Below the pieces are notes generated by a model. That model did no database searches. It saw only the letters and a program-made list of their open reading frames with translations, and was not told the origin of the DNA. DNA of 51,672 nt, taken from NCBI GenBank assembly GCA_029210815.1, contig JARGGB010000014.1, positions 1 to 51,672 of the forward strand, written 5' to 3'. The translations under genes were made by a program, and so were the position numbers. Positions 31,639 to 50,715 of the stretch are shown here, piece after piece (positions within the stretch are counted from its first letter, which is position 1; the number at the start of each line of letters is the position of its first letter). Source of the stretch: Candidatus Brevefilum sp. GTDB taxonomy: Bacteria > Chloroflexota > Anaerolineae > Anaerolineales > Anaerolineaceae.

Positions 31639-32535
31639 TTATGTGACAACATTTAACTCTCTGCTCTCTGCATTCAGCCCTGGCAATGGCTCAAAAGCGA
31701 AAAACTCACTGCCCCTCCTGGAGGGACTTTCATCTGGACAATAGACCTCTCCTGGGGTGCAATAGGCTAATGATTGATGGGGGCGTTCATGATTATAAAA
31801 GTTCAGGTAGCGGTTAATGGCAAAGCGAGCTTCTCTAGGACTTTGGTAATCATTCAAGTAAACTTCCTCGTACTTGACAGAGCGCCACAGTCTCTCGTTG
31901 AAAATATTGTCCATGGCTCGCCCGCGGCCATCCATGCTGATACGGATACCGGCATCCAGTAAACGCTGAGTATATTGGGGACTGGTGAAGTGGCTACCCT
32001 GGTCGCTGTTCCAGATCTCGGGTTGATTTTGAGCCAGGGCTTGATCCACTGATCGCAACACAAAGGGTATTTCCAGGGTTTGATCTAATTCCCAAGCAAC
32101 GACATAGCGTGAAAACCAGTCCAGGATAGCCACCAAGTACATCCAACCACCAGACAGGCGAATATAGGTGATGTCAATTGACCAAACCTGGTTGGGTCTT
32201 TCAATACGTAACCCTCGCAGAAGATAAGGATATACTTTGTGTTCTGGATGAGGTTGACTCAGGTTTGGACCAGGGGCAATACCCGCAATCCCCATTTCTC
32301 GCATATATTTCTGCACTGTTGGCCGTGAAATTGTCTTGCCTTCCCGCCGCAAGACCGCTGTCATCTTCCGGGAACCATAGAAGGGATGGTCAGTGTAGAG
32401 CTCGTCGATGCGATGCTTACAGGCGATTTCTTGAGCTGATGGGGCGACCGGATGGTAATACAAACTAGCCCGGCTTAAGCCCAGTAACTGCGCCTGGGTT
32501 TTCAGTGAAATTTTGGGGTTGTGTCGTTCAATCAT
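31639..32535 (-). CDS. IS3-family transposase OrfB (DDE integrase)
   Basis: 298 residues. An N-terminal HTH_21-type segment (LGLSRASLYYHP) is followed by the rve core with the three catalytic acids: D in WSIDITYI, D in NSDQGSHF, and E in NERLWRSVKYEE. The usual C-terminal YNHERPHQSL is present. Its ATG overlaps the orfA stop as ATGA; the family often makes an OrfAB fusion by frameshifting, and translational coupling is another possibility here. It looks intact. Confidence 0.93.
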   Translation of the reverse strand: MIERHNPKISLKTQAQLLGLSRASLYYHPVAPSAQEIACKHRIDELYTDHPFYGSRKMTAVLRREGKTISRPTVQKYMREMGIAGIAPGPNLSQPHPEHKVYPYLLRGLRIERPNQVWSIDITYIRLSGGWMYLVAILDWFSRYVVAWELDQTLEIPFVLRSVDQALAQNQPEIWNSDQGSHFTSPQYTQRLLDAGIRISMDGRGRAMDNIFNERLWRSVKYEEVYLNDYQSPREARFAINRYLNFYNHERPHQSLAYCTPGEVYCPDESPSRRGSEFFAFEPLPGLNAESRELNVVT

Positions 32536-32852
32536 TTTGTAGCGGTCACTTCTCGATAAATTCGATGCCAGATTTTTTTGAGCCAGGTCAGTTGAGTGTT
32601 CAACCTCCCGATCTCAGCATATAACTCTTGTAGCTGACGCTCGTGCATGGCTTTCGTAGCTTTTTCACTCTTGTGCTCCTCCTCAAAAACCTTAGGAATT
32701 CCTTCCAGTGCTTGCGCTTTCCACTTGTACAGCTGGTTGGGATGGATGCCATACTCGGAGGCTATTTGGACAATTGGTCGTTCTTCTTTCAGAATTTCCA
32801 GTACGATTTGTGCTTTTTGTTTGGCGGTGTAGCGTTTTCTCATGTGTCTCAT
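32532..32852 (-). CDS. IS3-family transposase OrfA (HTH)
   Basis: 106 residues. A helix-turn-helix of the HTH_8 type (IASEYGIHPNQLYKWKAQAL) is followed by a leucine-rich coiled coil (LQELYAEIGRLNTQL). It binds the IS ends. The ATG at 32843, three codons inside, has better spacing from AAGGTGG than the one at 32852. The inner arm of the terminal repeat overlaps this ribosome site. Confidence 0.9.
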   Translation of the reverse strand: MRHMRKRYTAKQKAQIVLEILKEERPIVQIASEYGIHPNQLYKWKAQALEGIPKVFEEEHKSEKATKAMHERQLQELYAEIGRLNTQLTWLKKIWHRIYREVTATK

Positions 32853-34205: not shown

Positions 34206-34369
34206 CAGGGTGTCTCCTTAATAAAATGGATTGACGTCATCAAAAAGTCGATGGTATATAAAATAACACAAATGGGTGGATAAAGTTTCCTTTAGTCGAT
34301 TCGAGAGAAAAAATAAAAATTCAATATCAAGCGTGTTAACCTTGTTAAACGAGATGATTAAAATAGCAT

Positions 34370-34398
34370 TTACCAGATTTCTCTAAGGAAATTATAGT
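34370..34398 (+). promoter_or_regulatory. Candidate promoter of the lipid-synthase operon
   Basis: TTACCA (34370-34375), a 17-base spacer and TATAGT (34393-34398). The -35 box matches 4 of 6 consensus bases and the -10 box 5 of 6. No other site in the leader is better. Confidence 0.35.
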
Positions 34399-34475
34399 GT
34401 TTCTTCCCCCGACAATTTCAATTGATCGATCTAAGGTTCATAACTTTAATGGATTTCTTGTGTTATTAGTTAACG

Positions 34476-34495
34476 AGGCCGACAAAAATCGGCTT
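34476..34495 (+). promoter_or_regulatory. Hairpin in the operon leader
   Basis: AGGCCGA (34476-34482) pairs with TCGGCTT (34489-34495), including one G-U pair, around a CAAAAA loop. No T-run follows, so it is not a terminator by itself. It may affect mRNA stability or bind a regulator. Confidence 0.4.
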
Positions 34496-34571
34496 GTTAC
34501 CAACTTCAGTTTCTAATTCACACCGGTAACATATCTGGATAATCGTAGATATTTGAAAGTTGAGGAACGCC

Positions 34572-37500
34572 ATGAAACCTATTGCCATAATCGGCATGTC
34601 CGCTATCTTCCCTCAGGCAGAAAATCTTCAGGATTACTGGGATAACATTCTCAACGAGGTCGATTGCATCACGGATGTGCCGCCCTCCCGCTGGGAGATC
34701 GCCGATTACTATGATCCTGATCCCAAAGCGCCGGACAAATCCTATAGCAAACGCGGTGGTTTTATTCCGGATATCGATTTCAATCCCTTTGAATTCGGTT
34801 TACCGCCCAACATTCTTGAAGCAACGGATGTCTCACAGCTATTGGCGCTGGTGGCTGCCAAAGCCTGTCTGGAAGACGGTGGCTATGGCGATTCAGAAGG
34901 GGTGTCCCGGGAAAATGTCGGGGTGATCTTGGGTATGGTCGGCGTCGGCAGCAAATTGATGCATCCCCTGATGGACCGCTTGCAATATCCGGTCTGGGAT
35001 AAAGTTCTAAAAAGTTACGGCATCGCCGAGCGTGATCGCCAAGGAATAATCGAAAAAATCAAGCTGGCCTACCCAAAATGGGAAGAGAACTCCTTCCCGG
35101 GGGCGATCGGGAATGTGGTCGCCGGGCGGATCGCTAATCGATTTGACCTGGGCGGCACAAACTGCGTGATCGATGCCGCCTGCGCCAGCTCGCTGGCAGC
35201 CATTCGGATGGCTGTCGGGGAACTGGTGGAAGGTCACGCCGACATGATGATCTCCGGCGGGGTGGATACCGATAATTCCATTGGCGCTTACCTTTGTTTC
35301 AGCAAAACGCCGGCTTTTTCCCCCGGTGAAAAGGTGCGCACTTTTGATCAGGAATCCGATGGGATGCTGATGGGGGAGGGCATCGGAATGGTGCTCATGA
35401 AGCGATTGGAGGACGCCCAACGCGATGGTGACCGGGTCTATGCCGTCATCAAAGGCGTGGGCAGTTCCAGTGACGGACGCTACAAATCCATTTACGCGCC
35501 CCGGCCTGAAGGGCAATCTCTGGCATTGACGCGGGCGTATGCTGATGCAGGTTTCAGTCCGGCCACGGTGGGGTTGATTGAAGCGCATGGCACCGGGACA
35601 ATGGCTGGCGACCCGGCTGAATTTCAGGGGTTAAACGCAGTGTTTTCTACTGAGAATGCCAGCCTTCAAACCATTGCGTTGGGGAGCGTCAAATCACAAA
35701 TCGGTCACACCAAGGCTGCCGCAGGCGTTGCCAGCATCATCAAAACTGCGCTGGCGCTGCACAATAAAATCCTCCCGCCAACGATCAATGTGGACCAACC
35801 CAATCCAATCTTAGCGATTGAAACATCCCCATTTTATATTCATACCACCGCACAACCCTGGGTAGATCCCCTTAAGTACCCCCGGCGAGCGGGTGTGAGT
35901 GCCTTTGGTTTTGGCGGGACCAATTTTCATGTTGTTTTGGAGGAGAATGAAACAGAGCACACCGCCGCTTATCGCACGAGTTCAAGCGGAAAAGTAATCC
36001 TTCTTTCAGCCGAAGATCCCCAGAAGTTGTCTGAAAAATGCAGTCAAGTGCTTGTAAGCTTGCAAGCGCCGTCTGCTTCTACTTTTGCCGAGCTTTGTGC
36101 ACAATCTGACGTTGCAGCGCTTCCCCCATCACATGCCAGACTTGGTTTTGTTGCCAATAACGCCCCGGAAGCTCTAACAAAGCTTGAGATCGCGCTGGAT
36201 ATGATCACCCGTGCAGAAGGCGAAGAATCAGCGGAACATCCTTCAGGTGTCTTTTATCGTGCAAGGGGTTTTGCTGAAGATGAAAAAGTTGTGGCGCTGT
36301 TCCCCGGGCAGGGATCCCAATATGTCAATATGGGGTCCGAGGTAGCGATGAATTTTCCTGAAGTTCGTCAGGCAATGGCAAAGATGGATGCGCTGTTTTT
36401 GGAGGATAATCAGCCCCGCTTATCAAAAACCGTCTATCCAATCTCTGTCTTCAACCAGGAAGAGAGGGACGCTCAAACGCGCAAGCTCACCCAAACCCAA
36501 TTCGCCCAACCGGCCATTGGCGCCCTGAGCATGGGATTGTATCAGCTGCTGTCAAAGGCTGGCTTCGACCCCGATTTTGTTGCGGGTCACAGTTTTGGGG
36601 AACTGACTGCGCTCTGGGCAGCGGGTGTTTATTCGGATGCAGCGTTCCTGTTTCTGGCCAAGGCGCGCGGTGAAGCCATGGCCCCTCCCTCCGATCCGGA
36701 TTTTGATTCCGGTACGATGCTGGCGGTTAAAGGGGATATCCAACAACTCAAAGAGGATCTTCAAGATTTCCCAGATGTCCGTTTGGCAAACCACAACGCG
36801 AACAATCAGGTGGTTCTGGCAGGAACCAAAACCGCTATAGCGAAGATTCAAGAAGCTTTGACCGAAAAAGAGTATAAGGTCTTCCCGCTGAATGTATCGG
36901 CAGCCTTCCATACCCCCCTGGTGGCGCATGCCCAGAAACCCTTTGCAGACGCGCTCCAGCAGATTAAATTTCACAAGCCGAAAACACCCGTCTTTTCAAA
37001 TTCTACAGGGGAAGAATACCCTACTGCCATTGCGGCGATGCAAAGCATTCTAAAAGATCATATATTGAACTCCGTGAATTTCAAGGCGGAAATTGAGGCC
37101 CTTTATGCTGCAGGTGGGCGGGTTTTTGTTGAGATTGGTCCCAAAAGTGTGCTGACAGGCTTGGTTAACAATATCCTGGACGGCAAGCCTCATGTAACAT
37201 TGGCTTTGAACCCGAGCGCGAAAAAGGACAGCGACCGGCAGCTGCGAGAAGCCATCGCCCAATTATGTGTGTTGGGGCTTCCTTTGCACCAATTTGATCC
37301 CTATGCCTTTCCCCTAGCACAGCTAGAGCCCCAAAAGTCGGCGGTCACTGTCCGGTTGAATGGAGGGCTGTACCTGTCAGAAGAAACCAAGGCTGCGTTC
37401 CAAAATGCGATCGCTCAACAGGATACCCTTGAAATGCAAACACCCCCTGAAGTTCATGCGGGTAAATCTGAGGCAATATCGCTTGTATTGACAGAAGGTG

Positions 37501-39416
37501 AAAAAATTGGAGCGGGGAATCAAAGTCAGGAAAAGCCCGATTCGCAGTCATCTATTGCTGGCGTGAGTTCCATCCAGGAAGACATGACCAGTGTGCATCA
37601 AAAATTCCTGGAAAATGACTTTGAATACAGCCAAATCTTCAGCCAGTTGACCCAACAAGAGTTGGCTTTGCTTAAGAGCTCGTCTGCGCAGAAAAATCTC
37701 GAACAAATCAATACGGCTTTACAAACACTTGATCACAGTATCCAGCAATTTCATCAACACCAAGCAACGACTCTGCGAATCCAGGAACAATACCTTAAGA
37801 ACCAAACCAGTCTACTGAAATATGCCTTGAATGGTGATGACACTCCCAAGACAACCGGTTCCTCTACTACTATTAGAGAGTATGACTCTAAGCGAAGATC
37901 AGATGACCCGGTCCGTTCTGGACAAGTAAAATCTTTAACGGAAGCATCATTAAGTGAAGCAGGTTTTCAGGACGCGCCAAAGGAGCCATCGAATGAGACA
38001 ACAGCTTCTTTGCCGTCAGAAAAAATGCTGGTGCTAGGTCAAAAAATGGATCTTGAGCTGCTGACCACCTCGTTGTTACAGATTGTGAGTGAGAAAACAG
38101 GCTACAGCCCGGAGATGCTGGATTTAGAGATGGATCTGGAAGCCGATTTAGGAATCGATTCCATCAAACGCGTGGAAATTCTTGGCGCTATGCAAGCGAG
38201 CTTTCCTAATTTGCCACAACCGGAACCGAGCCTTCTTGCCGAGCTGCGGACGCTGGAGGAGATTGTCGCCATGCTCTTCGCAGGGTCTGAAAAGGGTATC
38301 GAACCCCAAAATTTACAACAACCTACTTCCCCTTCTCGAATAACCGAGCTTCAGGATCCTGTTCAGGTGGACGGGGGTGGATCGCTACCTGATAAAGCTA
38401 CTCTTCAAACTGCGCTGCTGAACATCGTCAGCGCAAAAACGGGTTATTCCCCGGAGATGCTGGATTTGGAGATGGATTTGGAAGCCGACCTGGGTATCGA
38501 CTCCATCAAGCGGGTCGAGATCCTCGGCGCTTTACAGGAGCAATTTCCAGATATTCCTGCTGTCGATCCATCAACGTTGGTGGAATTCCATACGCTAAGG
38601 CAAATCATTGATGCCCTATCGCTGTCTGAGATGATGGAAAATAAACTGGACGATTCCACTCTCCCTACTGAAACTGACCGTCAAACGACCTTACGTCATA
38701 TCATCTCTCTCCAATCGCTGCCATTGCCTGACCGCCTTGTTTCTCCTTCGAACCACAAAAGCACCGTTCTGGTGACAGATGATGGCGGACACCTGACCAC
38801 CGAACTGGCAGAGCGATTGACGACTTCTGATAGGCAGGTGGTGGTACTCTCGTTGCCAGAAAATCTCGTCCCAGAAAATACCACCCTGCCGGAATCCATT
38901 GAGCATGTTGTACTGCACGATGTTTCAGAAACCACTCTCGCGTCCACGCTGAAGGGGATTGAAACTTCTCATGGGCAGATTGACACCTTTATCCACCTGG
39001 ATCCGAGCAGTAACGGGACAAAACCCTTCGGTGACGCGGAAAAAACCATTCTAAAGTTGATTTTTTTCACCGCCAAACACCTTCAAAAGTCCCTGACCCA
39101 GGTCGGAGAAAACGGGAGTCGGGCTGCTTTTATAACCGTCACGCGTCTGGATGGCCAATTCGGGTTATCCCAAACGTTGGACATTGAACCGCTCAAAGGT
39201 GGCTATTTTGGTCTGACGAAATCCCTGAACCTGGAATGGGACCATGTCTTCTGCCGTGCGATAGATTTAGCGCCGGATTTGGATCCTCAAACTGCCGCGG
39301 GGCATATTACCGCCGAGCTGCAGGACCCTAACAGGTTGCTTAGCGAGGTTGCCTATGATAAATATGGCCGGTACACGTTGACAGTCCAGGCATCAGAAAA
39401 TGAGGCCTCAATATGA
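34572..39416 (+). CDS. PfaA-like synthase: KS-AT-ACP-ACP plus N-terminal half of KR
   Basis: 1614 residues from the ATG at 34572 (AGGA five bases upstream; a TTG at 34560 is rejected). The KS is at about 1-440 with C204 (DAACASS), H339 (EAHGTG) and H379 (QIGHTK). The AT is at about 560-880 with S674 (GHSFGE) and H780 (AAFHTP), a malonyl-type signature as in PfaA. A helical Gln-rich linker follows (about 990-1100). Two ACPs share DLGIDSIKRVEILGA, with phosphopantetheine serines S1197 and S1311. Residues from about 1395 form the structural, non-catalytic half of a PKS ketoreductase (GYFGLTKSLNLEWD). The catalytic half is on the next gene, joined by an ATGA overlap. This is the chain-building subunit of a PUFA/secondary-lipid type synthase. 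No release domain is present. Confidence 0.93.
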   Translation: MKPIAIIGMSAIFPQAENLQDYWDNILNEVDCITDVPPSRWEIADYYDPDPKAPDKSYSKRGGFIPDIDFNPFEFGLPPNILEATDVSQLLALVAAKACLEDGGYGDSEGVSRENVGVILGMVGVGSKLMHPLMDRLQYPVWDKVLKSYGIAERDRQGIIEKIKLAYPKWEENSFPGAIGNVVAGRIANRFDLGGTNCVIDAACASSLAAIRMAVGELVEGHADMMISGGVDTDNSIGAYLCFSKTPAFSPGEKVRTFDQESDGMLMGEGIGMVLMKRLEDAQRDGDRVYAVIKGVGSSSDGRYKSIYAPRPEGQSLALTRAYADAGFSPATVGLIEAHGTGTMAGDPAEFQGLNAVFSTENASLQTIALGSVKSQIGHTKAAAGVASIIKTALALHNKILPPTINVDQPNPILAIETSPFYIHTTAQPWVDPLKYPRRAGVSAFGFGGTNFHVVLEENETEHTAAYRTSSSGKVILLSAEDPQKLSEKCSQVLVSLQAPSASTFAELCAQSDVAALPPSHARLGFVANNAPEALTKLEIALDMITRAEGEESAEHPSGVFYRARGFAEDEKVVALFPGQGSQYVNMGSEVAMNFPEVRQAMAKMDALFLEDNQPRLSKTVYPISVFNQEERDAQTRKLTQTQFAQPAIGALSMGLYQLLSKAGFDPDFVAGHSFGELTALWAAGVYSDAAFLFLAKARGEAMAPPSDPDFDSGTMLAVKGDIQQLKEDLQDFPDVRLANHNANNQVVLAGTKTAIAKIQEALTEKEYKVFPLNVSAAFHTPLVAHAQKPFADALQQIKFHKPKTPVFSNSTGEEYPTAIAAMQSILKDHILNSVNFKAEIEALYAAGGRVFVEIGPKSVLTGLVNNILDGKPHVTLALNPSAKKDSDRQLREAIAQLCVLGLPLHQFDPYAFPLAQLEPQKSAVTVRLNGGLYLSEETKAAFQNAIAQQDTLEMQTPPEVHAGKSEAISLVLTEGEKIGAGNQSQEKPDSQSSIAGVSSIQEDMTSVHQKFLENDFEYSQIFSQLTQQELALLKSSSAQKNLEQINTALQTLDHSIQQFHQHQATTLRIQEQYLKNQTSLLKYALNGDDTPKTTGSSTTIREYDSKRRSDDPVRSGQVKSLTEASLSEAGFQDAPKEPSNETTASLPSEKMLVLGQKMDLELLTTSLLQIVSEKTGYSPEMLDLEMDLEADLGIDSIKRVEILGAMQASFPNLPQPEPSLLAELRTLEEIVAMLFAGSEKGIEPQNLQQPTSPSRITELQDPVQVDGGGSLPDKATLQTALLNIVSAKTGYSPEMLDLEMDLEADLGIDSIKRVEILGALQEQFPDIPAVDPSTLVEFHTLRQIIDALSLSEMMENKLDDSTLPTETDRQTTLRHIISLQSLPLPDRLVSPSNHKSTVLVTDDGGHLTTELAERLTTSDRQVVVLSLPENLVPENTTLPESIEHVVLHDVSETTLASTLKGIETSHGQIDTFIHLDPSSNGTKPFGDAEKTILKLIFFTAKHLQKSLTQVGENGSRAAFITVTRLDGQFGLSQTLDIEPLKGGYFGLTKSLNLEWDHVFCRAIDLAPDLDPQTAAGHITAELQDPNRLLSEVAYDKYGRYTLTVQASENEASI

Positions 39417-41188
39417 CCAAGCCAAAGGTGATTGACAAAAATTCTGTGGTGCTTGCCAGTGGCGGCGCGCGTGGGATCACAGCGCAATGCGTGGTTCAGC
39501 TGGCACAAGCATTTCCTGCTCACTATCTTCTCCTCGGTAGAACGGCAATCGATCAAGTTTTGCCAGACTGGGCAGAAGCTGATCTGGACGACAAGGAACT
39601 CAAAGAACGGATTATGGTCGAGCTGGTTGAAAGAGATGAAAAAACCACCCTGCGGCGCATAGAGAACCGTTTCAAGCAAATCCGCGCCCAACAGGAAGTC
39701 CAAGCGACCCTTGCACAAATCACTCAAACCGGTGCCACTGTAGACTATATCCAGGCAGACGTCACCGAGGCAGATGTGTTGCGGGAGCGCCTTTCGCTTC
39801 CCATCCAAAAGTATGGGCCGGTCTCGGGTATTATCCATGGCGCTGGGGCGCTGGCAGACCGAAAAATTGAGAAAAAGAGCCAAGAAGATTTTGACCGGGT
39901 GACAGAACCAAAAATTGATGGCTTCAAGAACTTGCTCACCATGGCGCCGGTGCAATCCCTGGATTTCTTGATTCTCTTCTCTTCAATTGTGGGGGTCTTT
40001 GGCAATATCGGTCAAACCGACTATGCCCTAGCGAACGAAGTATTAAACAAGGCAGCTTACCAGGCAAAGCGGGAAAATCCGGATTGCCGAGTCATTTCAA
40101 TCAATTGGGGTCCCTGGGAGACGGGTATGGTCACTCCTGAACTAAAACGCCTGTTTACCGCTCGGGGTATGGCTTTGGTCTCCGCTGAAAGCGGCCCGCA
40201 AGCCATGGTCGACGAGCTGACATCCCCTCGGACGACACAAGCGGATCCGGTCCAGATAATCATCGGCGCTATTCCCACCCGCCCAGCTCAAGCACTCTCC
40301 GATGTTTTGAAAACACATAAGATCAGCCGCCAGCTGAGCCTGAAGGCTAACCCATTTCTATCTGATCATAAAATCGGTGATCATCCTGTCTTGCCCGCTA
40401 CCTGCGCCGCGGCCTGGATCGCCAATAGCTGTGAGCAGCTCTATCCCGGGTACTCGTTATTTCAGATGGATAACTTCAAGGTCTTAAAAGGAATTATATT
40501 CAACGAAACTTTGGCAAGCGAACACTGGTTAGAAATCGCTGAAACCGAGAAAATCTCCGGAGAGAAAATTCAATGCACAGCGAAGATCTTCAGCCAGCGG
40601 AGGGATGGGAAGCCGCTGTTCCATTACACAGCTGACCTGGTGCTTCTGGCAGAGGTGCCGCCCGCGCCATCCCACAGGCTGCGCGATCAGCTTAACAATC
40701 TCGAACAGGAGCAGATCCGGAGCGATGCGCTTTATCAGGATGGCACCTTATTTCACGGCCCAGCCTTCCAGGGCGTACGGCGTGTCCTGGATATTGATAA
40801 GAACGGCCTGGTTTTGGAATGCTTCCTACCTGCTATGGCCCCCGCAGATCAAGGGCAGTTCTCGGCCCACACCGCCAACCCCTTTATGAATGACACCATT
40901 GTGCAATCCTTACTGATTTGGACTCAGCATTTCCTCCAAATGCCCTGTTTACCCTCGCACTTAGAGCAGTTGACACAATATCGTCCTGTCGTGTTTGACC
41001 AACGCTATCTGGTGAACATGCAGGTGATCGCTCAAACCGAAACAGCCATCGTGGCTGATATTTATGTCACCGATGAAGAAGGCATACTGTATGAAAAATT
41101 CACGCGCCTGCAGGGCACGATCAGCCCGCTGCTCAATCGTTTTATTGGCAGTAAGACGAACCAGAAGGTGTCTCCGACCAATGCGTGA
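39413..41188 (+). CDS. Catalytic half of KR plus PKS-type dehydratase (rest of PfaA)
   Basis: 591 residues. Residues 1-300 are the catalytic KR half: the NADPH site ASGGARGIT (about 15-23), catalytic S191 and Y204 (SSIVGVFGNIGQTDYALANE). Residues about 310-590 form a PKS dehydratase fold with H319 (FLSDHKIGDHPVLP), then LFHGPAFQGVRR and NPFMNDTIVQ, where the second catalytic Asp is expected. In classical PfaA, KR and DH follow the ACPs on the same chain, so this gene plus the previous one equals a PfaA cut inside the KR. GAGG lies 7 bases before the ATG, so independent initiation is credible. The two KR halves must meet for activity. Confidence 0.9.
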   Translation: MTKPKVIDKNSVVLASGGARGITAQCVVQLAQAFPAHYLLLGRTAIDQVLPDWAEADLDDKELKERIMVELVERDEKTTLRRIENRFKQIRAQQEVQATLAQITQTGATVDYIQADVTEADVLRERLSLPIQKYGPVSGIIHGAGALADRKIEKKSQEDFDRVTEPKIDGFKNLLTMAPVQSLDFLILFSSIVGVFGNIGQTDYALANEVLNKAAYQAKRENPDCRVISINWGPWETGMVTPELKRLFTARGMALVSAESGPQAMVDELTSPRTTQADPVQIIIGAIPTRPAQALSDVLKTHKISRQLSLKANPFLSDHKIGDHPVLPATCAAAWIANSCEQLYPGYSLFQMDNFKVLKGIIFNETLASEHWLEIAETEKISGEKIQCTAKIFSQRRDGKPLFHYTADLVLLAEVPPAPSHRLRDQLNNLEQEQIRSDALYQDGTLFHGPAFQGVRRVLDIDKNGLVLECFLPAMAPADQGQFSAHTANPFMNDTIVQSLLIWTQHFLQMPCLPSHLEQLTQYRPVVFDQRYLVNMQVIAQTETAIVADIYVTDEEGILYEKFTRLQGTISPLLNRFIGSKTNQKVSPTNA

Positions 41189-43514: not shown

Positions 43515-43521
43515 GGAGCGC

Positions 43522-44811
43522 ATGTCATCAGAATTGGAAAACACCATCCGCAGTCGCTATGCACACTCGGTCTCAGACCATTCCCGTGATCTGGCAACCC
43601 TCCAGAAGCAGTTTCTAGCAATCCGAAAGATGGACTTACAGCGAATCTCGCATAGCCTTTCGAGATTAATTAGTGCGGTTGAGCCAGCGACTCAACCGGA
43701 TGATCTGGTCCCCTTATTCTCGAGGGAGTGGTTAGAGAATTTTGCGACAGGCGACATCGTCCAAAGTCTGGGGCCGCACTACGCCGTCTATCAGGGTCGT
43801 AGATGCCCTCGCATTCCAAACGGCGACTTTCTGTTGATTTCGCGTATACGTACCATTCAAGGGACCCAAAATCAATTCAATGGCCCCATCAGCATTACCG
43901 CTGAATTTGACGTCCCACCCGATGCCTGGTTCCTGGAAGATGGATTCAGTGGAGATTGTCCGCTATCGATCCTCATGGAAATAGCGCTTCAACCCTGCGG
44001 TGTTTTATCAGCCTGGCTCGGAACCTCACTGCGCTTTCCTGCTGAAAACTATTACTTCAGAAATCTGAACGGCACACTCCAACGCACTAAAACGGTTGAT
44101 CTGCGCGGAAAAACGGTCCTGACCCGGGCAAAGCTGACCAAGACCACCTTCAATGGACGGATCATCCTCCAGTATTTTCATTTTGAAACATTCTGCGAGA
44201 ATGAGATGATCTTGACAGGTACTTCGTCCTTTGGCTATTTCCCCGCCGAAATGATGGCCGCTCAAATGGGTTTGGAAGGCGGCGCGCCCTCTGAGCCGTG
44301 GGGAAGGAAGGCAGCAAATACCTCTAAACTGGTTCAAATCCTGCCCAATAATTCACATCTTTTTCCAAATCAGCCCACCGGTAAATTGCGGATGATTGAT
44401 GAGGTCTGGATTTCCCGCGGCGGCGGGAAGCATAACCGCGGATATAGCATAGCGTCCCGCCGAAACGCTCCCGAGGATTGGTTTTATGCCAATCATTTCT
44501 TTCAGGACCCTGTCATGCCAGGCTCATTGGGGCTGGAAGGTTTCCTCCAGGCTTTCAAGGCTTTGATCCATGCGTTGACTGGGTCAGAAAAGCCGATCAT
44601 TGGGATGCCCGGGCTGGTTCTTGAATGGAAATATCGCGGCCAGGTCCTGCCCTCCCATGAAAAAATGTGGGTCGAGGTTCATCTAAAAGATCGGCAGTCA
44701 ACACCAGGTGGGCCTGTTTTCACCGCGGACGGGGGGCTCTGGGCGGACGATATTCGAATTTACGAGATAAAAAACCTGGTTCTTCAACAGATTGAAGGAA
44801 ATTGCTTATGA
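43522..44811 (+). CDS. FabA-like double-hotdog dehydratase (C-terminal part of PfaC)
   Basis: 429 residues. Residues about 60-230 form a first hotdog (FATGDIVQSLGPHYAVYQGR, PDAWFLEDGFSGDCP, ILMEIALQPCG). Residues about 270-420 form a second with ANHFFQDPVMPGSLGLEGF, the FabA-type His and active-site region. This tandem matches the DH-DH end of PfaC, which dehydrates and can isomerise to cis double bonds. The KS and chain-length-factor domains that precede it in PfaC are absent here and elsewhere in the operon. GAGGAG precedes the ATG. It overlaps the next gene by ATGA. Confidence 0.88.
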   Translation: MSSELENTIRSRYAHSVSDHSRDLATLQKQFLAIRKMDLQRISHSLSRLISAVEPATQPDDLVPLFSREWLENFATGDIVQSLGPHYAVYQGRRCPRIPNGDFLLISRIRTIQGTQNQFNGPISITAEFDVPPDAWFLEDGFSGDCPLSILMEIALQPCGVLSAWLGTSLRFPAENYYFRNLNGTLQRTKTVDLRGKTVLTRAKLTKTTFNGRIILQYFHFETFCENEMILTGTSSFGYFPAEMMAAQMGLEGGAPSEPWGRKAANTSKLVQILPNNSHLFPNQPTGKLRMIDEVWISRGGGKHNRGYSIASRRNAPEDWFYANHFFQDPVMPGSLGLEGFLQAFKALIHALTGSEKPIIGMPGLVLEWKYRGQVLPSHEKMWVEVHLKDRQSTPGGPVFTADGGLWADDIRIYEIKNLVLQQIEGNCL

Positions 44812-46385
44812 CAACCACACACTTGACCCCCACCATCCTAGCGGACTCGCCTGAAAACCGAGATATCCTCACAGCGATCAACAAGCCCTTTTGGATTTCT
44901 TGGGATAAGGCGACCCGTAGGGTGCAGTTATCTCAGGGACAATCTGATCGGTTCGTTGATAAACATGACCGCCAGATTCCCGGCATCGCCATTGAACAAT
45001 TAGGCACTGCCAGTTTCCGTGAGACATACGGTATGCGCTGTGCCTTTTATGCTGGTGCCATGGCGAACGAGATTGCTTCCACAGACATGGTGATTGCCCT
45101 GGGGAAAGCGGGCTTGATGGGATCATTTGGTGCAGCTGGCTTGACCATCAGCCGTCTGGAAAAGGCAATCGAAGAAATTCAAACGGCGCTTCCGCAGGGT
45201 CCTTACGCCTTCAATCTAATTCACAGTCCTTACGAAGCAGGCCTGGAAGAACAGGTGGTGGAGCGCTATCTCCGCAAAAAGATCGACGTTGTAGAGGCAT
45301 CGGCCTTCCTGAAATTAACCCCTTCCATCGTCCATTATCGAGCTACGGGCTTACATGCCAGCCCAACTGGCGAGGTGGCGATCACGAATCGGGTGATTGC
45401 CAAGCTGTCCCGAACGGAGGTCGCCGAGCAATTCCTTCAGCCTGCTCCCGCCAGTATTCTGGAAAAACTCTGCGAGGAGGGGAAAATTACCCGGGAGCAG
45501 GTGGTGTTGGCCGGACGGGTGCCCATGGCTGATGATATCACGGTGGAGGCAGATTCCGGTGGGCATACCGATAATCGCCCTCTGAATTGCCTGATGCCAA
45601 CCATGCTGGCATTGCGCGACCGGATGCAAGAAAAATATGATTATACGGTGCCGGTGCGGATTGGCGCGGGGGGTGGCATTTCAACCCCGACAGCCGTGCT
45701 GGGAGCGTTCATGATGGGGGCTGCCTATGTGGTCACCGGCTCGATCAATCAAGCCTGTGTCGAGTCCGGGGCATCCCCGCACACCAAACGCCTGTTGGGG
45801 GAGGCGGGAATGGCGGATGTCACCATGGCGCCCTCTGCAGACATGTTTGAAATGGGCGTCAAAGTCCAGGTTTTAAAACGGGGCACACTGTTTCCCATGC
45901 GGGCGCTCAAGCTCTATGAGATTTATACCCGCTATGACTCCATTGACGCTATCCCCTCGGAGGAACGCCAGAAACTTGAAATACAGATATTCCAAAGGGA
46001 GTTGGAGTCCGTCTGGCAGGAGACTGTCAGGTTCTTTGAGGTTCGTGATCCGATGCAAATTGAGCGGGCTGAGGCCAATCCCAAGAGAAAAATGGCATTG
46101 ATCTTCCGCTGGTATCTGGGGCTTTCTTCAAGGTGGTCCAACATCGGCGAACCCAATCGGGAGATGGATTATCAGATCTGGTGCGGCCCTGCGATGGGTA
46201 GTTTCAACGACTGGACGGACGGGACTTATCTGGCCGAACCAGACAACCGGCGGATTGTGGACGTGACCCTGCATTTGTTTGCCGGCGCAGTCTATCTGTA
46301 CCGGATCCAGCTGCTGAAGCTGCTCGGCGTTCAGGTCCCTGTGGGCTTGTCAGGTTATACGCCGCAGTCAGCCCTGGAGGCTTGA
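44808..46385 (+). CDS. PfaD-like FMN enoyl reductase
   Basis: 525 residues from the ATG at 44808, with GAAGGA about 9 bases upstream. It is a TIM-barrel of the nitronate monooxygenase/2-nitropropane dioxygenase type. Features are YGMRCAFYAGAMANEIAST, the PfaD-specific DITVEADSGGHTDNRP, VRIGAGGGISTP for FMN phosphate binding, and a C-terminal extension (MALIFRWYLGLSSRWSNIGE, YQIWCGPAMGSFNDW) found in PfaD but not in short relatives. It reduces enoyl intermediates on the synthase using FMN and NAD(P)H, acting in trans. Confidence 0.93.
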   Translation: MTTTHLTPTILADSPENRDILTAINKPFWISWDKATRRVQLSQGQSDRFVDKHDRQIPGIAIEQLGTASFRETYGMRCAFYAGAMANEIASTDMVIALGKAGLMGSFGAAGLTISRLEKAIEEIQTALPQGPYAFNLIHSPYEAGLEEQVVERYLRKKIDVVEASAFLKLTPSIVHYRATGLHASPTGEVAITNRVIAKLSRTEVAEQFLQPAPASILEKLCEEGKITREQVVLAGRVPMADDITVEADSGGHTDNRPLNCLMPTMLALRDRMQEKYDYTVPVRIGAGGGISTPTAVLGAFMMGAAYVVTGSINQACVESGASPHTKRLLGEAGMADVTMAPSADMFEMGVKVQVLKRGTLFPMRALKLYEIYTRYDSIDAIPSEERQKLEIQIFQRELESVWQETVRFFEVRDPMQIERAEANPKRKMALIFRWYLGLSSRWSNIGEPNREMDYQIWCGPAMGSFNDWTDGTYLAEPDNRRIVDVTLHLFAGAVYLYRIQLLKLLGVQVPVGLSGYTPQSALEA

Positions 46386-46386
46386 C

Positions 46387-47142
46387 ATGCGTTTGGTGCC
46401 CTGGCAGGAACTCAATCGCTGGTGTTTGCCAACCTTCGGGAGTCCTCTGATTGTCTCAGCACAGCTGGAAGGAAAAACTGGCGCGCAGTTTTTTGGCTTA
46501 CTATCAGAGAATGAAAAAGCACGCGTTTCACGGTTGAAGAATCGGGCGGTAGCTGAACGATGGGTGATCACCCATGGGATCCTGCGACTTGTTCTGGGTC
46601 AGATTCTCCAGATGGCACCACAGAGGCTCAAGTTTGGGGAAAACCGGTATCAAAAACCGTTCCTGTCGTGCCCAGCAGATTCTAACCTTTCTTTTAATCT
46701 TTCACATTCCGAAGAATTTCTTTTGATTGCACTTACCAAAGGCAGGCGAATTGGAATTGACGTGGAGAGATTGTCACCTGACAGGGATTTTGCAGCCATT
46801 GCCCCACTCGTTTTTTCTCCTGAAGAGCAAGCCCTCCTATCCTGTTCAAGTGATCCCCGCCTAGATTTCTATACGCTCTGGACGGCCAAAGAAGCCATTC
46901 TCAAGGCAACCGGGCGAGGCTTTTCATTCCCGCCTCGCCAGGTGCAGTTAACAATAAAAGATACCGCTCTTACAATTGTAAATCTACCGGTCGAATTGTC
47001 CAAAGATGGCGCCTGTGCCCTCACACCCTTCCAACCAGAAACAGGCTATGCGGCTGCGGTCGCCATCCTGAATGAACCGTCCGGTGACTTGCAAACTGTG
47101 GGGATAGCCGCTCCCCATCTGAGCAGAGCGCTGGTTTATTAA
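46387..47142 (+). CDS. Sfp-type 4'-phosphopantetheinyl transferase (PfaE-like)
   Basis: 251 residues. The magnesium/CoA motif GIDVER has D125 and E127, and WTAKEAILKATGRG has K168 and E169. It loads the phosphopantetheine arm onto the two ACPs, without which the synthase is inactive. It starts 1 base after the PfaD stop, so it is part of the operon. In classical pfa clusters the equivalent enzyme is PfaE. Confidence 0.92.
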   Translation: MRLVPWQELNRWCLPTFGSPLIVSAQLEGKTGAQFFGLLSENEKARVSRLKNRAVAERWVITHGILRLVLGQILQMAPQRLKFGENRYQKPFLSCPADSNLSFNLSHSEEFLLIALTKGRRIGIDVERLSPDRDFAAIAPLVFSPEEQALLSCSSDPRLDFYTLWTAKEAILKATGRGFSFPPRQVQLTIKDTALTIVNLPVELSKDGACALTPFQPETGYAAAVAILNEPSGDLQTVGIAAPHLSRALVY

Positions 47143-47162
47143 GTGAAAGCCATAGTGATACG

Positions 47163-48710
47163 ATGAATGAGAATCAAGAAGATCAATACCTGCAAATTCA
47201 GAACGCCGCCAGATTGGGCGGGGGTCAGGGGCGGATTGACAAACAACATGCCGCCGGGAAATTAACCGCCCGGGAACGCATTGGTAAATTATTGGATCCG
47301 GGCACCTTTATCGAGACCGGGCTGTATGTCTCCCATCGGTCAAGTGGTTTTGGCATGGAAGATAAGCGGTATGCAACGGATGGTGTGATTACGGGGTGGG
47401 GGAAGATCAATGGTCATCGGGTATATGTTTTTGCGCAGGACTTTACCATCCTGGGAGGCTCCCTGGGAGAAGCGCATGGTCGGAAGATCGCCCAACTGAT
47501 GGACCTGGCTTATCAGAACGGCGCGCCGCTGATCGGAATCAACGACTCCGGCGGGGCACGCATCCAGGAGGGGGTTGATTCTCTGGCTGCTTATGGAGAG
47601 ATATTTTATCGCAATACCCGCGCCTCCGGCGTAACCCCCCAAATCTCCCTGATCATGGGACCCTGCGCAGGGGGAGCCGTCTATTCCCCGGGCATCACGG
47701 ACTTTGTGTTTATGCTTGACCAGAATGCCTTTATGTTTATCACCGGCCCGGAGGTCATCAAAGCGGTCACCCATGAAGAGGTCACCTTTGAGACCCTGGG
47801 GGGTGCAGTGATGCACAGTGAAAAGAGCGGCGTGGCCCATTTCACCGCGCCGGATGAGGAAGCCCTATTCAACCAGCTGCGTTGGCTGCTGTCTTACCTG
47901 CCCCCCAATAATCTCACACCCCCGCCCGTCATCCCCGCCACAGACGATCCTCAACGGTTGACGCCAGAGTTGAAAACGATCGTTCCTGATGAACAGAATC
48001 AGCCCTATGACATGCACGGCGTGATCGAAGTTCTTGTTGACGACGGTGAGTTTTTAGAAGTGCAGCCCGGTTACGCCCAAAATATCCTCGTCGGATTTGG
48101 CCGGTTGGATGGGCACCCGGTTGGCTGGATCGCCAATCAGCCGGGCTTCCTCGCCGGGGTTTTGGATATCGATGCTGCCGATAAAAGCGCCCGGTTTATC
48201 CGCTTTTGTGATGCCTTTCATATCCCGCTGGTCACGCTGGTGGATACCCCCGGTTTCCTGCCAGGCAGCGACCAGGAACATGATGGCATAATTCGCCACG
48301 GCGCCAAGTTGATCTATGCTTATGCGGAGGCGACGGTGCCCAAGCTGGCGATTATCCTGCGGAAAGCCTACGGTGGCGCCTATATTGTCATGTCTTCCAA
48401 ACACCTGAGGAGTGATTACAACCTGGCCTGGCCGCAGGCTGAAATTGCCGTGATGGGGCCAGAAGGCGCTGTAAAAATAATCTTCCGCAATGAGATCAAG
48501 ACAGCTGAAGACCCGGGTGCTGCTGCCCAAGAACGTGCGCGTCAATATCGTGAAGAGTTCGCCAATCCGTATTTGGCAGCATCCCGCGGCTATGTGGATG
48601 ATATCATCCTCCCGCGCGAGAGCCGCCTTCGTCTGATAGCAGCTCTGGAAAGCCTGCTGGATAAACGCCAGAACACGCCACCTCGAAAACACGGCAACAT
48701 CCCATTGTGA
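47163..48710 (+). CDS. Acyl-CoA carboxylase carboxyltransferase subunit (AccD/PccB/MmdA type)
   Basis: 515 residues with both lobes of the carboxyltransferase fold: N-lobe NDSGGARIQEGVDSL and GPCAGGAVYSPGITDF, C-lobe RKAYGGAYIVMSSKHL and DYNLAWPQAEIAVMG. It moves a carboxyl group from biotin to acyl-CoA. The Asp before YNLAW lies in the region that separates propionyl- from acetyl-CoA preference in actinobacterial enzymes, so propionyl-CoA is possible. The malonyl-type AT in the operon suggests acetyl-CoA instead. Substrate unresolved. It begins 20 bases after the PPTase gene, with a weak ribosome site. No decarboxylase membrane subunit is nearby. Confidence 0.9.
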   Translation: MNENQEDQYLQIQNAARLGGGQGRIDKQHAAGKLTARERIGKLLDPGTFIETGLYVSHRSSGFGMEDKRYATDGVITGWGKINGHRVYVFAQDFTILGGSLGEAHGRKIAQLMDLAYQNGAPLIGINDSGGARIQEGVDSLAAYGEIFYRNTRASGVTPQISLIMGPCAGGAVYSPGITDFVFMLDQNAFMFITGPEVIKAVTHEEVTFETLGGAVMHSEKSGVAHFTAPDEEALFNQLRWLLSYLPPNNLTPPPVIPATDDPQRLTPELKTIVPDEQNQPYDMHGVIEVLVDDGEFLEVQPGYAQNILVGFGRLDGHPVGWIANQPGFLAGVLDIDAADKSARFIRFCDAFHIPLVTLVDTPGFLPGSDQEHDGIIRHGAKLIYAYAEATVPKLAIILRKAYGGAYIVMSSKHLRSDYNLAWPQAEIAVMGPEGAVKIIFRNEIKTAEDPGAAAQERARQYREEFANPYLAASRGYVDDIILPRESRLRLIAALESLLDKRQNTPPRKHGNIPL

Positions 48711-48717
48711 GGACACT

Positions 48718-50208
48718 ATGAAAATTTTAGTTGCCAACCGCGGAGAAATCGCCTTAAGAATTTTGCGTTCCTGTCGCGAGCTGGGTTTTCCCAGCGTGGC
48801 AGTTTATTCGGCAGCGGATCAGGACTCCCTGCCTGCGAGGTATGCTGATGAAGCGGTCTCGATTGGTGGTACGCCCGCCCGGGAAAGTTATTTGAACACG
48901 GGTCACGTCCTCAAAGCAGCTATTGAATCTGGCGCTGAGGCCGTCCACCCGGGCTATGGGTTTCTTTCGGAAAACGCAGATTTCGCTCAGGCGGTGGAAG
49001 ATGCCGGTCTGATCTTCATCGGCCCCAGCCCTGAAACGCTGGCGCTCACCGGCGATAAACTGGCTGCCCGCCGCATCGCACGCCAGGCCGGGTTGCCGGT
49101 TCTTCCCGGACCGGATCAAGCCATTTTGGAAACGGTGACAGATGCACAGCTGGCTAAAGTCAATTACCCGGTCTTGATCAAAGCCGTCTCTGGCGGAGGG
49201 GGGCGGGGCATTCGGTTGGCTAATAATCTGACGGAGCTGGAAGAAATGATCCTGGCTGCCCGGCAGGAAGCCAAGGCAGCCTTTGGGGATGACTCGGTCT
49301 ATTTCGAACCCCTAGTCCAACAGGCTCGGCATGTCGAGATTCAAATCCTGGGTGATGGGCATGGCAGGATCCTCGCGCTGGGGGAGCGTGAATGCTCCAT
49401 CCAGCGCCGTCACCAGAAACTGATCGAGGAATCCCCTGCCCCCAGCCTGAGTCCCACCATGCGCCAGAATCTGTACCAGGCTGCCCTCACCCTGGGAAAA
49501 ACGCTGAACTACCGCAGTCTGGGCACGGTGGAATTTCTCCTCAATGAAACGGGCGGCTTCTATTTTATCGAGGTCAACCCTCGCATCCAGGTGGAACACC
49601 CGGTAACCGAGATGGTCACCGGGGTTGATCTGGTCAGCGCCCAGCTTCGCCTGGCAGCCGGACAACCTTTTAAATATGCTCAGAAGGATATTCATCCCCG
49701 TGGTTCTGCCATCGAAGCCAGGGTTCTTGCGGAAGACCCTGAAAACGGGTTTCTCCCGGCAACCGGAGAAATCACATATTTGAAAGAACCGGGCGGGCCA
49801 GGCGTGCGAGTTGATTCTGCGCTTTATGTTGGGCAAGAGATCACCGCCGATTATGATTCCCTGATTGCTAAAGTCATTGTATGGGCCGAAGAACGCCAGA
49901 CCACCATTCAAAGGCTTCAACGCGCACTAAATGAATTTCAGATTGGCGGCATCCCCACTGATATCGAGCTGTTGCTTCAAATCATTGATTCAGAGCACTT
50001 CAACCAGGGCAGCGCAAACACCACTTATCTGGAAACCTTTCAATTCGTGCCAAATGGGAATGAAGAAACCCTGAAAGAAGATATGGCGCTGGCAGCTGCC
50101 TTGTTGGCACATCAAAGCCTGGCACACCCGCAGATAGCCCAATCACACAACATCGCAAGCGGATGGCAGTCTCAAGCCTGGAAAGAACAGATGCGTTACA
50201 ATTTTTAG
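48718..50208 (+). CDS. Biotin carboxylase subunit of acyl-CoA carboxylase
   Basis: 496 residues. It starts MKILVANRGEIALRIL, and the ATP-grasp glycine loop is VSGGGGRGIRL near 160-170. EVNPRIQVEHPVTEMVTG is near 285-302, and YDSLIAKV is in the C-terminal part. It carboxylates biotin with ATP and bicarbonate. It has no attached biotin carrier; that is the next gene. GAGG precedes the ATG, 7 bases after the carboxyltransferase stop. Confidence 0.94.
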   Translation: MKILVANRGEIALRILRSCRELGFPSVAVYSAADQDSLPARYADEAVSIGGTPARESYLNTGHVLKAAIESGAEAVHPGYGFLSENADFAQAVEDAGLIFIGPSPETLALTGDKLAARRIARQAGLPVLPGPDQAILETVTDAQLAKVNYPVLIKAVSGGGGRGIRLANNLTELEEMILAARQEAKAAFGDDSVYFEPLVQQARHVEIQILGDGHGRILALGERECSIQRRHQKLIEESPAPSLSPTMRQNLYQAALTLGKTLNYRSLGTVEFLLNETGGFYFIEVNPRIQVEHPVTEMVTGVDLVSAQLRLAAGQPFKYAQKDIHPRGSAIEARVLAEDPENGFLPATGEITYLKEPGGPGVRVDSALYVGQEITADYDSLIAKVIVWAEERQTTIQRLQRALNEFQIGGIPTDIELLLQIIDSEHFNQGSANTTYLETFQFVPNGNEETLKEDMALAAALLAHQSLAHPQIAQSHNIASGWQSQAWKEQMRYNF

Positions 50209-50229
50209 AACCTATCCTGGGAGATCACG

Positions 50230-50715
50230 ATGACCCTTTATACGGTGTCCGTTGGCACAAAAAAATACCAGGTAGCTGTTTCAGATCAAGCCGTTGAGAT
50301 CAATGGCCAATCAACACACGCGGCGCTTGTAAAGGTCGATGGCCAGGGACTGTATCAGCTTGACAAGGATAACCAGAAACAAGATATCCTGATCCAGGCG
50401 CTGGGTAAGGGCCAATACTCCTTAAATGTTGCTGGCAGACAAAGTATTGTCAGCGTTGAAAAAACCAGCAGTCAATCACAGCGGAAAGTGAATAAGCATG
50501 TCGAGGGGGATATCAAAGCGCCAATTTCAGGTGTAGTGGTCAAAGTAAATGTGGTGGTGGGGGATCGGGTTAGCACAGAGGATGTCGTACTGGTATTAGA
50601 ATCGATGAAAATGCAGATGCTGATCCGAGCTCCTTTGGATGGTATAGTGACCGCTGTTCATGTGACCTCTGGCACTCAGCTTGCTAAGGGCGACTCAATA
50701 GTGACAATTGAATAG
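50230..50715 (+). CDS. Biotin carboxyl carrier protein
   Basis: 161 residues. A variable N-terminal half is followed by a biotinyl domain (about 90-161) with LVLESMKMQM; K127 is the biotinylated lysine. The variable half resembles the C-terminal region of propionyl-CoA carboxylase alpha chains and of decarboxylase gamma subunits. It is the last gene of the operon, 21 bases after biotin carboxylase. No BirA biotin ligase gene is in the window. Confidence 0.92.
   Translation: MTLYTVSVGTKKYQVAVSDQAVEINGQSTHAALVKVDGQGLYQLDKDNQKQDILIQALGKGQYSLNVAGRQSIVSVEKTSSQSQRKVNKHVEGDIKAPISGVVVKVNVVVGDRVSTEDVVLVLESMKMQMLIRAPLDGIVTAVHVTSGTQLAKGDSIVTIE

Follow-up and report, generated by a model that had tools for sequence, protein, structure and literature searches.

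A Pfa-like type I synthase operon with its own acyl-CoA carboxylase, a candidate primary fatty acid synthase in Anaerolineaceae

Genes and domains of the operon

The analysed window, a stretch of 51,672 nucleotides, contains nine open reading frames on the forward strand between positions 34572 and 50715 (Table 1), which follow each other from g1 to g9 with gaps or overlaps of -4, -8, +7, -4, +1, +20, +7, and +21 bases. All nine are present. A sequence-only reading of this DNA had already proposed nine same-strand genes with these gaps, which the starts of the reading frames confirm exactly, and had interpreted them as a lipid synthase with a built-in 4'-phosphopantetheinyl transferase (PPTase) and a carboxylase, identities that are borne out by matches to Pfam and NCBIfam models. 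Pfam revealed no glycosyltransferase, desaturase, or thioesterase inside the nine genes. Scanning for promoters and terminators gave several weak matches without sign of function in the intergenic region upstream of the operon, a search of the window against Rfam matched no RNA element, and the reading frame at 51406, which is cut by the contig end, has no Pfam match. The G+C content of the operon is 52.5% compared to 47.3% in the window upstream of it, and a pair of transposases is located 1.7 kb upstream. Based on these two features it is possible that the operon has been acquired recently.

Table 1. Genes of the operon and the region preceding it
Feature	Position	Strand	Assignment
Intergenic region upstream of operon	34206..34571		Putative promoter location; no ORF of at least 100 aa
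g1	34572..39416	+	PfaA-like KS-AT-ACP-ACP and N-terminal half of split KR
g2	39413..41188	+	KR-DH; separate gene for the C-terminal part of PfaA
g3	41181..43514	+	PfaB, degenerate KS* and acyltransferase
g4	43522..44811	+	One FabA-type dehydratase unit: inactive-looking hot-dog and hot-dog with His and Glu
g5	44808..46385	+	PfaD enoyl reductase
g6	46387..47142	+	4'-phosphopantetheinyl transferase (PPTase)
g7	47163..48710	+	Acyl-CoA carboxyltransferase
g8	48718..50208	+	Biotin carboxylase
g9	50230..50715	+	Biotin carboxyl carrier protein (BCCP)

The first two genes share one NCBIfam model, the PfaA model TIGR02813, which g1 (PF00109, PF02801, PF00698, and two PF00550 domains) matches with 1640.8 bits and g2 (PF08659, PF21089, PF14765) with 447.4 bits at model positions 1991-2579. 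The motifs DAACASS, EAHGTGT, KSQIGH, GHSFG, AAFHT, and two copies of LGIDSIK are found in g1. In total, the expected active-site motifs were found in the KS, the AT, both ACPs, the KR, the second half of g4, the PPTase, and the BCCP. The score of g3 against the PfaB model TIGR02816 is 142.5 bits, 1.8 bits short of the cut-off of 144.3; its predicted structure (pLDDT 79) has the PfaB crystal structure 9ry8 as best match in the PDB (target TM 0.85), and the motif GYSLGE is present. The KS* of g3 is strongly diverged: in an alignment of 14 sequences sharing the architecture of the operon, at least one of which (L129) lacks most of this part, every column before residue 272 stays below 80%. A wider alignment of 12 sequences retains three invariant residues in this part. 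The PfaD assignment of g5 is based on TIGR02814 (661.7 bits) and the PDB entry 4yx6, a PfaD (E 1.4e-196). The PPTase g6 matches PF01648 with 64.8 bits, and its best NCBIfam match, HetI, is below the cut-off (110.9 versus 370 bits).

PF07977 is matched by residues 285-417 of g4 (119.8 bits) and, weakly, a second time by its first half. According to the alignments the first hot-dog half lacks a conserved His, and the second keeps His and Glu. Because g4 aligns twice, over most of its length, to the fused KS-CLF-AT-DH-DH proteins of relatives (L029 and others), one of the two FabA-type units of PfaC is missing in addition to the KS-CLF. Thus, the DH-DH protein of the sequence-only reading is in fact one FabA-type unit made of two hot-dog halves, and its description of the domain set as PfaA-E minus the KS-CLF is correct in the absence of the KS-CLF but overlooks the absent FabA-type unit.

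The last three genes encode a full three-subunit acyl-CoA carboxylase comprising carboxyltransferase (CT), biotin carboxylase, and BCCP with a biotin site. The CT g7 is of the MmdA/PccB type (PF01039, 657.9 bits; PDB 1vrg, a PccB, E 1.1e-203), g8 contains PF00289, PF02786, and PF02785 and scores above the cut-off of NF006367, and g9 contains PF00364 with the biotin site ESMKM. Within GGAYIVM g7 has an Ile, at a position that might have some influence on acyl-CoA choice in Streptomyces carboxylases. The only other CT of the host (C7) adjoins a BCCP and OAD_beta, which is the arrangement of a decarboxylase, and was therefore rejected as a second acetyl-CoA carboxylase (ACC).

Ketosynthases and synthase forms in the host family

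The host genome encodes one true ketosynthase (KS), that of g1; three further weak PF00109 matches are thiolases. Neither FabF nor any other KS was found outside the operon, nor a FabH-like protein at E<=1e-40. In the host's family one of 147 genomes has FabF (E<=1e-85), compared to 118 of 120 genomes taken from the class outside this family, and FabH above the cut-off is found in none of the 147. FabF could in principle lie in the 4% of the host genome that is missing, but this can be rejected, because 146 of the 147 family genomes lack it as well. The absence of FabZ is not informative, since PF07977 is not matched in the sister genomes G149 and G185 either, although they carry FabF. A KS (E<=1e-25) is found in 64 family genomes, of which 62 have a single KS locus and two (G004 and G132) have two, and 83 have none at this threshold; in the host's own genus the KS is missing in 13 of 16 genomes. 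FabH-like proteins do not explain the KS-less genomes, given that they are present in 50 of the 147 at E<=1e-40, none above the cut-off, and not significantly associated with the KS (p 0.22). PfaD accompanies the KS in 61 of the 64 genomes and 79 genomes have neither (Fisher p 1.7e-32), although the significance in these tests is overstated by taking genomes as independent and ignoring phylogeny.

The synthases of the family have two architectures, that of the studied operon (form B) and a sister architecture (form A). Form A comprises 47 genomes assigned by elimination, with 19 KS sequences placed in the form-A clade, and the KS-bearing genomes G002, G029, and G056 were left without class. 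Both forms occur together in one genome only. The gene order of the operon is contiguous in five other genomes (L125 in G106, L175 and L007 in G065, L124 in G060, L129 in G107, L130 in G104) and is therefore not a chance arrangement; G105 and G109 are consistent with it but interrupted by contig ends. The FabA-type unit was found in all six form-B genomes tested compared to none of the five form-A genomes tested. In a KS tree of 61 of 101 sequences, from which near-duplicates and redundant Nostoc sequences had been removed, the g1 KS groups with cyanobacterial Pfa/Hgl-like loci and another Chloroflexi genome (17 sequences, SH-aLRT 100), and the form-A KSs, which are about 42-45% identical to the g1 KS, form their own separate clade. 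The same carboxylase trio adjoins the form-B synthase in several genera and is located directly upstream of the form-A synthase in five relatives (L164, L166-L169), so that in some genomes it is linked to either architecture. This linkage between carboxylase and synthase is real.

A probable role in primary fatty acid synthesis and its alternatives

The operon probably is the primary de novo fatty acid synthase of its host, as the absence of any other KS suggests. In the explanation that we prefer, with a probability of about one half, it would be a self-supplied iterative type I synthase that takes the place of FAS II, its products being ordinary and mainly saturated fatty acids of the membrane. 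As expected from family membership and intact motifs, g7 to g9 would carboxylate acetyl-CoA to malonyl-CoA, g6 would arm both ACPs of g1, the AT of g1 would load malonyl units and its KS condense them, and KR (g1/g2), DH (g2 and/or g4), and ER (g5) would complete each cycle. The acyltransferase of g3 may either load the starter or release the chain. The product would be mainly saturated with roughly C14-C18, branched starters being possible, and the operon would substitute for the FabF-type FAS II that the family has lost.

This reading as a primary synthase is favoured because the host's one true KS is in g1, FabF is so rare in the family compared to the remaining class, FabH above the cut-off is absent from the family, KS and PfaD go together, the other CT of the host sits in a decarboxylase arrangement, each of the two forms has the trio linked to it in some genomes, and no tailoring gene is found inside the nine genes. 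In addition, form A supplies the only KS of four cultured relatives, for which the major fatty acids listed are straight saturated and iso/anteiso chains of C14-C20; the paper on strain SW7 states that no species apart from this strain showed unsaturated ones. There is also precedent for a core function, since FabB and FabF mutants can be complemented with KS domains taken from the PUFA synthase of a thraustochytrid (excerpts of PMC9702510) and pfa genes complement the loss of fabD in Escherichia coli (excerpts of PMC8174602). That the host is an anaerobic Chloroflexota, as had been supposed, agrees with its named relatives, which are Anaerolineaceae, a group of obligate anaerobes.

Several observations point away from a primary synthase. 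More than half of the family genomes, including most of the host's genus, have no KS. G066 agrees with Leptolinea tardivitalis YMTK-2, whose fatty acids have been published, and yet neither a KS nor a PfaD was matched in it. Uptake or a KS-independent route may therefore supply fatty acids, and the operon could be accessory. All listed cultured strains use yeast extract so that uptake is possible there, and those with fatty acid data carry form A and not form B. Besides one discrete ACP-like gene, the host retains a second protein of the ACPS type, and the clade of the g1 KS includes cyanobacterial sequences from Pfa/Hgl-like loci.

It could also be, although we regard this as somewhat doubtful, that the operon corresponds to the secondary lipid synthases of Shulse and Allen (2011, PMC3098273) and makes a specialised long or modified acyl chain, while the host takes up its bulk fatty acids or makes them by an unrecognised route that involves no PF00109 ketosynthase. 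The grouping of the g1 KS, the many relatives living without any KS, the G+C contrast and transposases that would fit a recent acquisition, and the block g1-g6 that is present in one and absent from the other of two genomes of one genus agree with this. However, secondary synthases are by definition additional to core synthesis and there is no FAS II ketosynthase beside the operon in the host, so that the term specialised, as opposed to primary, is doubtful; of the sequence-only claim of a specialised lipid synthase the whole type I synthase remains. The nearly universal single KS locus and the rarity of genomes with both forms also argue against it, as does the lack of modifying genes in the operon and, by eye, of a common tailoring gene in the listed flanks of five related operons, few of whose flanking genes were profiled.

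Concerning the carboxylase, it is unlikely that the trio is a neighbour with a role of its own, as propionyl-CoA or general acyl-CoA carboxylase, instead of a dedicated supplier, an idea that would be compatible with the other readings. The MmdA/PccB type of the closest models and structures of g7, the location of g7-like CTs remote from the synthase in some genomes (e.g. G069, G005, and G112), and G066, which has kept the trio without a synthase, speak for it. The linkage of the trio to both forms is opposed to it, and the form-A-linked and form-B-linked CTs do not form one recent cluster in the CT tree, in which several forks are weakly supported. Moreover, 27 of the 28 family genomes with a high-scoring g7-like CT have a KS, a score-based set of CTs with at least 735 bits plus fragments in G055 (internal stop) and G110 that leaves out the next CTs from G033, G002, and G035 (61-62% identity, all with KS). 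The CT of G066 is found on a long branch within the operon-linked clade, which suggests a later loss of the synthase.

An oxygen-independent synthesis of unsaturated or polyunsaturated fatty acids, close to the unusual, possibly unsaturated lipids originally envisaged, is very unlikely: PfaA, PfaB, PfaD, and PPTase homologues are present, g4 keeps His and Glu, and FabA-type domains are described as isomerising (excerpts of PMC9702510), but the KS-CLF, described there as required for particular elongation steps in PUFA synthases, and one of two FabA-type units are absent, two ACPs compare to four to six in Type A (excerpts of PMC3098273), and the cultured relatives, none of which has form B, are listed without unsaturated major fatty acids. 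Because the FabA-type unit is confined to form B among the genomes tested, some unsaturation is possible.

Returning to the primary-synthase reading, it is quite possible, albeit tentative, that the Anaerolineaceae-like family has discarded the type II KS and that Pfa-like type I synthases with a PfaD reductase have taken over primary fatty acid synthesis. In this scenario the two architectures, with their separate KS clades, would both be coupled in some genomes with an acyl-CoA carboxylase of their own, and KS-based synthesis would later have disappeared from over half of the family genomes sampled, or would never have existed there. If a Pfa-like synthase is the family's only KS, a core bacterial pathway would have been replaced in nature, the operon would be a compact nine-gene module leading from acetyl-CoA to an acyl chain, and membrane building in common anaerobic sludge and sediment bacteria would be explained. 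The KS-less genomes pose the question of whether they are fatty acid auxotrophs or use another route. Pfa-like synthases have been described as accessory systems alongside FAS II, and among the open-access literature matches listed there was no report of FAS II loss or of a type I fatty acid synthase in Anaerolineae.

Comparison with known systems

Judged by its predicted domains, the operon is not a PUFA synthase. It has the PfaA order of KS, MAT, tandem ACP, and KR, split between g1 and g2 and with two ACPs, as well as PfaB, PfaD, and PPTase, but neither the KS-CLF didomain of PfaC, there being no second KS in operon or genome, nor two FabA-type units. In the broad sense of a secondary lipid synthase, it has at least one KS, ACP, and KR, the usual tandem ACPs, and a KS of the PfaA group; since the host encodes neither FabF nor a further KS, it would not be accessory to a core synthase in the same genome unless that core route is independent of a KS. 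According to excerpts of PMC3098273, the operon resembles pfaEABCD of Types A and B in its PfaA, PfaB, PfaD, and PPTase homologues and tandem ACPs, and Type B in a PfaB with degenerate KS. In contrast to pfaEABCD, it has no KS-CLF, only one FabA-type unit, two ACPs, a PfaA split over two genes, an attached carboxylase trio, and a host without a FAS II ketosynthase.

The Type R cluster (Roseiflexus, Koribacter, and others) shares the occurrence in Chloroflexi and the combination of synthase and PPTase, but has KS-MAT-CLF-ACP-KR in a single protein, and its core cluster is described without PfaB or PfaD in the excerpts of PMC3098273. The same excerpts describe a gene for one ACC subunit that lies between pfaA and pfaE in Koribacter, a single subunit in one genome compared to the trio of the operon. 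The earlier statement that classical pfa clusters do not carry the carboxylase thus holds insofar as a carboxylase is near seven of 80 PfaD loci examined, all seven in Chloroflexota, and is limited by this Koribacter gene.

Cyanobacterial hgl or Type G islands have a related KS (Calothrix and Xenococcaceae sequences in the same clade), PfaD, a split PfaA in several loci, and a CLF/KS*-AT protein. They differ in often having a second KS or a KS-CLF fusion together with tailoring or PKS genes, and no carboxylase gene was matched in the cyanobacterial loci examined (flanks up to 10 kb). PKSs related to these islands occur in Chloroflexi and in other groups (excerpts of PMC11804610), so that homologues in Chloroflexi are already known. 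Form A, for example in Bellilinea caldifistulae (L152), differs in that its synthase is a single protein of some 2,800 aa, PfaD is encoded on the opposite strand, and the five genomes tested lack a FabA-type unit; it shares with the operon one KS per genome, PfaD, PPTase, and, in five genomes, the upstream carboxylase trio.

Gene content and conservation of the operon

The window is a complete contig (C5, 51,672 bases) of a 2.66 Mb host assembly that is 95.9% complete. The ORF coordinates agree with the sequence-only reading in giving nine genes separated by junctions of -4, -8, +7, -4, +1, +20, +7, and +21 bases, and motifs expected for the encoded proteins were found. The structure predicted for g3 with AlphaFold2 (mean pLDDT 79) fits the PfaB crystal structure 9ry8 (E 1.2e-40, target TM 0.85), and alignments show that its pseudo-ketosynthase has strongly diverged and that the acyltransferase serine motif is retained. 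In the alignments g4 divides into two hot-dog halves, and a conserved His is missing from the first. Because g4 is equivalent to a single FabA-type unit of the two present in fused proteins such as that of locus L029, the earlier equation of the domain set with PfaA-E minus the KS-CLF didomain is right about the KS-CLF but overlooks that one FabA-type unit is absent as well.

Features of the window and of related loci
Feature	Position	Strand	Assignment	Basis
Operon	34572-50715	+	nine genes, g1-g9	ORF coordinates
g1 + g2		+	PfaA in two pieces	profile search
g3		+	PfaB	profile search
g4		+	single FabA-type dehydratase unit	profile search
g5		+	PfaD	profile search
g6		+	PPTase	profile search
g7, g8, g9		+	carboxyltransferase, biotin carboxylase, BCCP	profile search
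Frame truncated by contig end	51406-51672	+	no Pfam match
Two transposase genes	31639-32852	-	integrase core, HTH_Tnp_1
Gene missing from G066	L175:13834-16413 (G065)		weakly YfhO-like, 860 aa
Discrete host gene	L171:5488-5745 (G000:C1)		ACP-like, unusual motif DLKADSMDQFF

A homologue scan with g5 kept at least 80 loci, whose neighbourhoods comprise flanks of up to 10 kb, often ended by contig ends. Among the matches listed, carboxylase genes lie beside the g5 homologue in 7 of 80 loci, all assigned to Chloroflexota by title. Five further genomes have the nine genes contiguous in this order (Pelolinea sp. C20, L125; Leptolinea sp. HRD-7, L175 + L007; FK_Sedi_A_Bin.25, L124; and those of L129 and L130), and in G105 and G109 the order is consistent but spread over separate contigs. 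Three loci are variants: L133 has a divergent trio of carboxylase genes and no match to g4, L126 lacks a local PPTase and biotin carboxylase, and L128 matches g1-g4 only.

Ketosynthases of the host and its family

The host encodes one true ketosynthase (KS) by PF00109, that of g1, and its three weak PF00109 matches are thiolases. A thiolase-like gene of the host (L086, G000:C24) adjoins one whose product is similar to the KAS III C-terminus, and together they resemble an HMG-CoA synthase pair of a mevalonate route. FabF (E<=1e-85) was found in one and FabH above its cut-off in none of the 147 family genomes; in the comparison set from other families of the class (120 genomes with completeness of 90% or more) FabF is present in 118. 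True KSs (E<=1e-25) are present in 64 family genomes, at a single locus in 62 and at two loci in G004 and G132. KS and PfaD occur together in 61 genomes, PfaD only in four (two weak), KS only in three, and neither in 79 (Fisher p 1.7e-32, phylogeny ignored). Of 300 genomes sampled from the phylum, 292 have a KS; six of the eight without belong to the host's family. Based on these counts, the family has lost the elongating enzyme of FAS II, and its KS-bearing members have a Pfa-like synthase instead, except G029, whose KS is a FabF. This genome context alters the meaning of the operon. The FabF of G029 (L119, G029:C15), the sole one of the family sample, comes from an assembly of 70% completeness in the genus of the window, and may represent either transfer or contamination.

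The synthases have two architectures. The window-type architecture (form B) is found in 15 of the 147 genomes and 11 genus groups, 14 genomes being called from the KS tree and G065 from its locus. In this tree form B is one clade (17 rows, SH-aLRT 100) together with two rows from cyanobacteria and one from another Chloroflexi genome, and form A is a separate clade (19 rows, SH-aLRT 100). Form A, assigned by elimination to 47 genomes, is a single protein some 2,800 aa long, with Pfam KS, AT, ACPs, KR, and DH in the one profiled; most of the examples inspected have an adjoining PPTase, and PfaD is on the opposite strand. FabA-type units were found in six of six form-B versus none of five form-A genomes tested, and both forms are present together only in G004. 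G132 has two form-A-like KS loci (C69 and C74, the latter L169), one of them preceded by the carboxylase trio. In two form-B genomes (G104:C6, L144; G107:C1, L145) there is an open frame about 1,945 aa long that contains two carrier domains and is possibly NRPS-like.

The carboxylase trio

The host's sole other carboxyltransferase sits with a BCCP and an OAD_beta subunit, an arrangement as in Na+-pumping decarboxylases. High-scoring g7-like carboxyltransferases, a set delimited by score, are found in 28 of the 147 family genomes. Of these 28, 27 have a KS, and all 15 form-B genomes are among them. In addition, the trio, in the order carboxyltransferase, biotin carboxylase, BCCP, immediately precedes form A in L164, which comes from the host's own genus, and in L166, L167, L168, and L169. 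Its linkage with two distinct synthases speaks for a functional connection, which would most simply be malonyl-CoA supply. The trio can also persist without a synthase, as in G066: compared with HRD-7 (G065) of the same genus group, both locus flanks are syntenic (L176, L170 versus L175 + L007), g1-g6 and the weakly YfhO-like gene are absent, and the trio is kept. Because the G066 carboxyltransferase is on a long branch inside an operon-linked clade, the tree suggests that the synthase was lost in this lineage.

Role and expected product

Against a primary role of the operon, 83 of the 147 family genomes, including 13 of the 16 that belong to the host's genus, have no KS at E<=1e-25 (PF00109), and these genomes (e.g. 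G022-G028, G036, G037, and G066) include ones that are 95-99% complete. G066 fits L. tardivitalis YMTK-2 (46.82% GC; 43.7, 50.0, and 47.0% in three stretches sampled from G066), a strain whose fatty acids have been published (PMC4070665), and G036 fits strain TC1 (41.35% GC; one stretch has 39.6%). The KS-less bacteria would have to import fatty acids, unless the family has a route that needs no PF00109 ketosynthase; given such a route the operon could be accessory. A further point against a primary role is that the host retains one discrete ACP-like gene away from other fatty acid genes. The operon was possibly acquired by transfer, because its G+C is 52.5% versus 47.3% upstream and a transposase pair, presumably IS3-like, lies 1.7 kb upstream of it.

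The sequence-only reading had proposed a PUFA-synthase-like operon that would give unusual, possibly unsaturated lipids. Its observation is confirmed and its interpretation is supported in part: of the PUFA synthase features tested, two are absent, the KS-CLF and a second FabA-type unit. A passage of the review PMC9702510 describes PUFA synthesis as using two KS domains of differing chain preference and FabA-type isomerisation, and thraustochytrid synthase KS domains as complementing FabB and FabF mutants; according to the abstract of PMC8174602, pfa genes make up for the loss of fabD in E. coli. Table 1 of PMC4070665 gives major fatty acids of cultured Anaerolineae, e.g. C16:0, C14:0, and i-C15:0 in Bellilinea caldifistulae, and the text of that paper says that no species besides its own strain SW7 had shown unsaturated fatty acids. 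Four Table 1 species (A. thermolimosa, B. caldifistulae, L. arvoryzae, and T. daxensis) match genomes with form A as only KS, and none of the four has form B. From these fatty acids, the KS and FabA roles, and the complementations, we would expect the products to be saturated for the most part, with g4 as a possible source of some unsaturation.

The reading that fits the operon best is a type I fatty acid synthase that is self-supplied and alone in its genome. No prior report of such a stand-alone operon was found in the open-access literature searched. Compared with known systems, it is a novel variant within the Pfa/Hgl-like synthase family.
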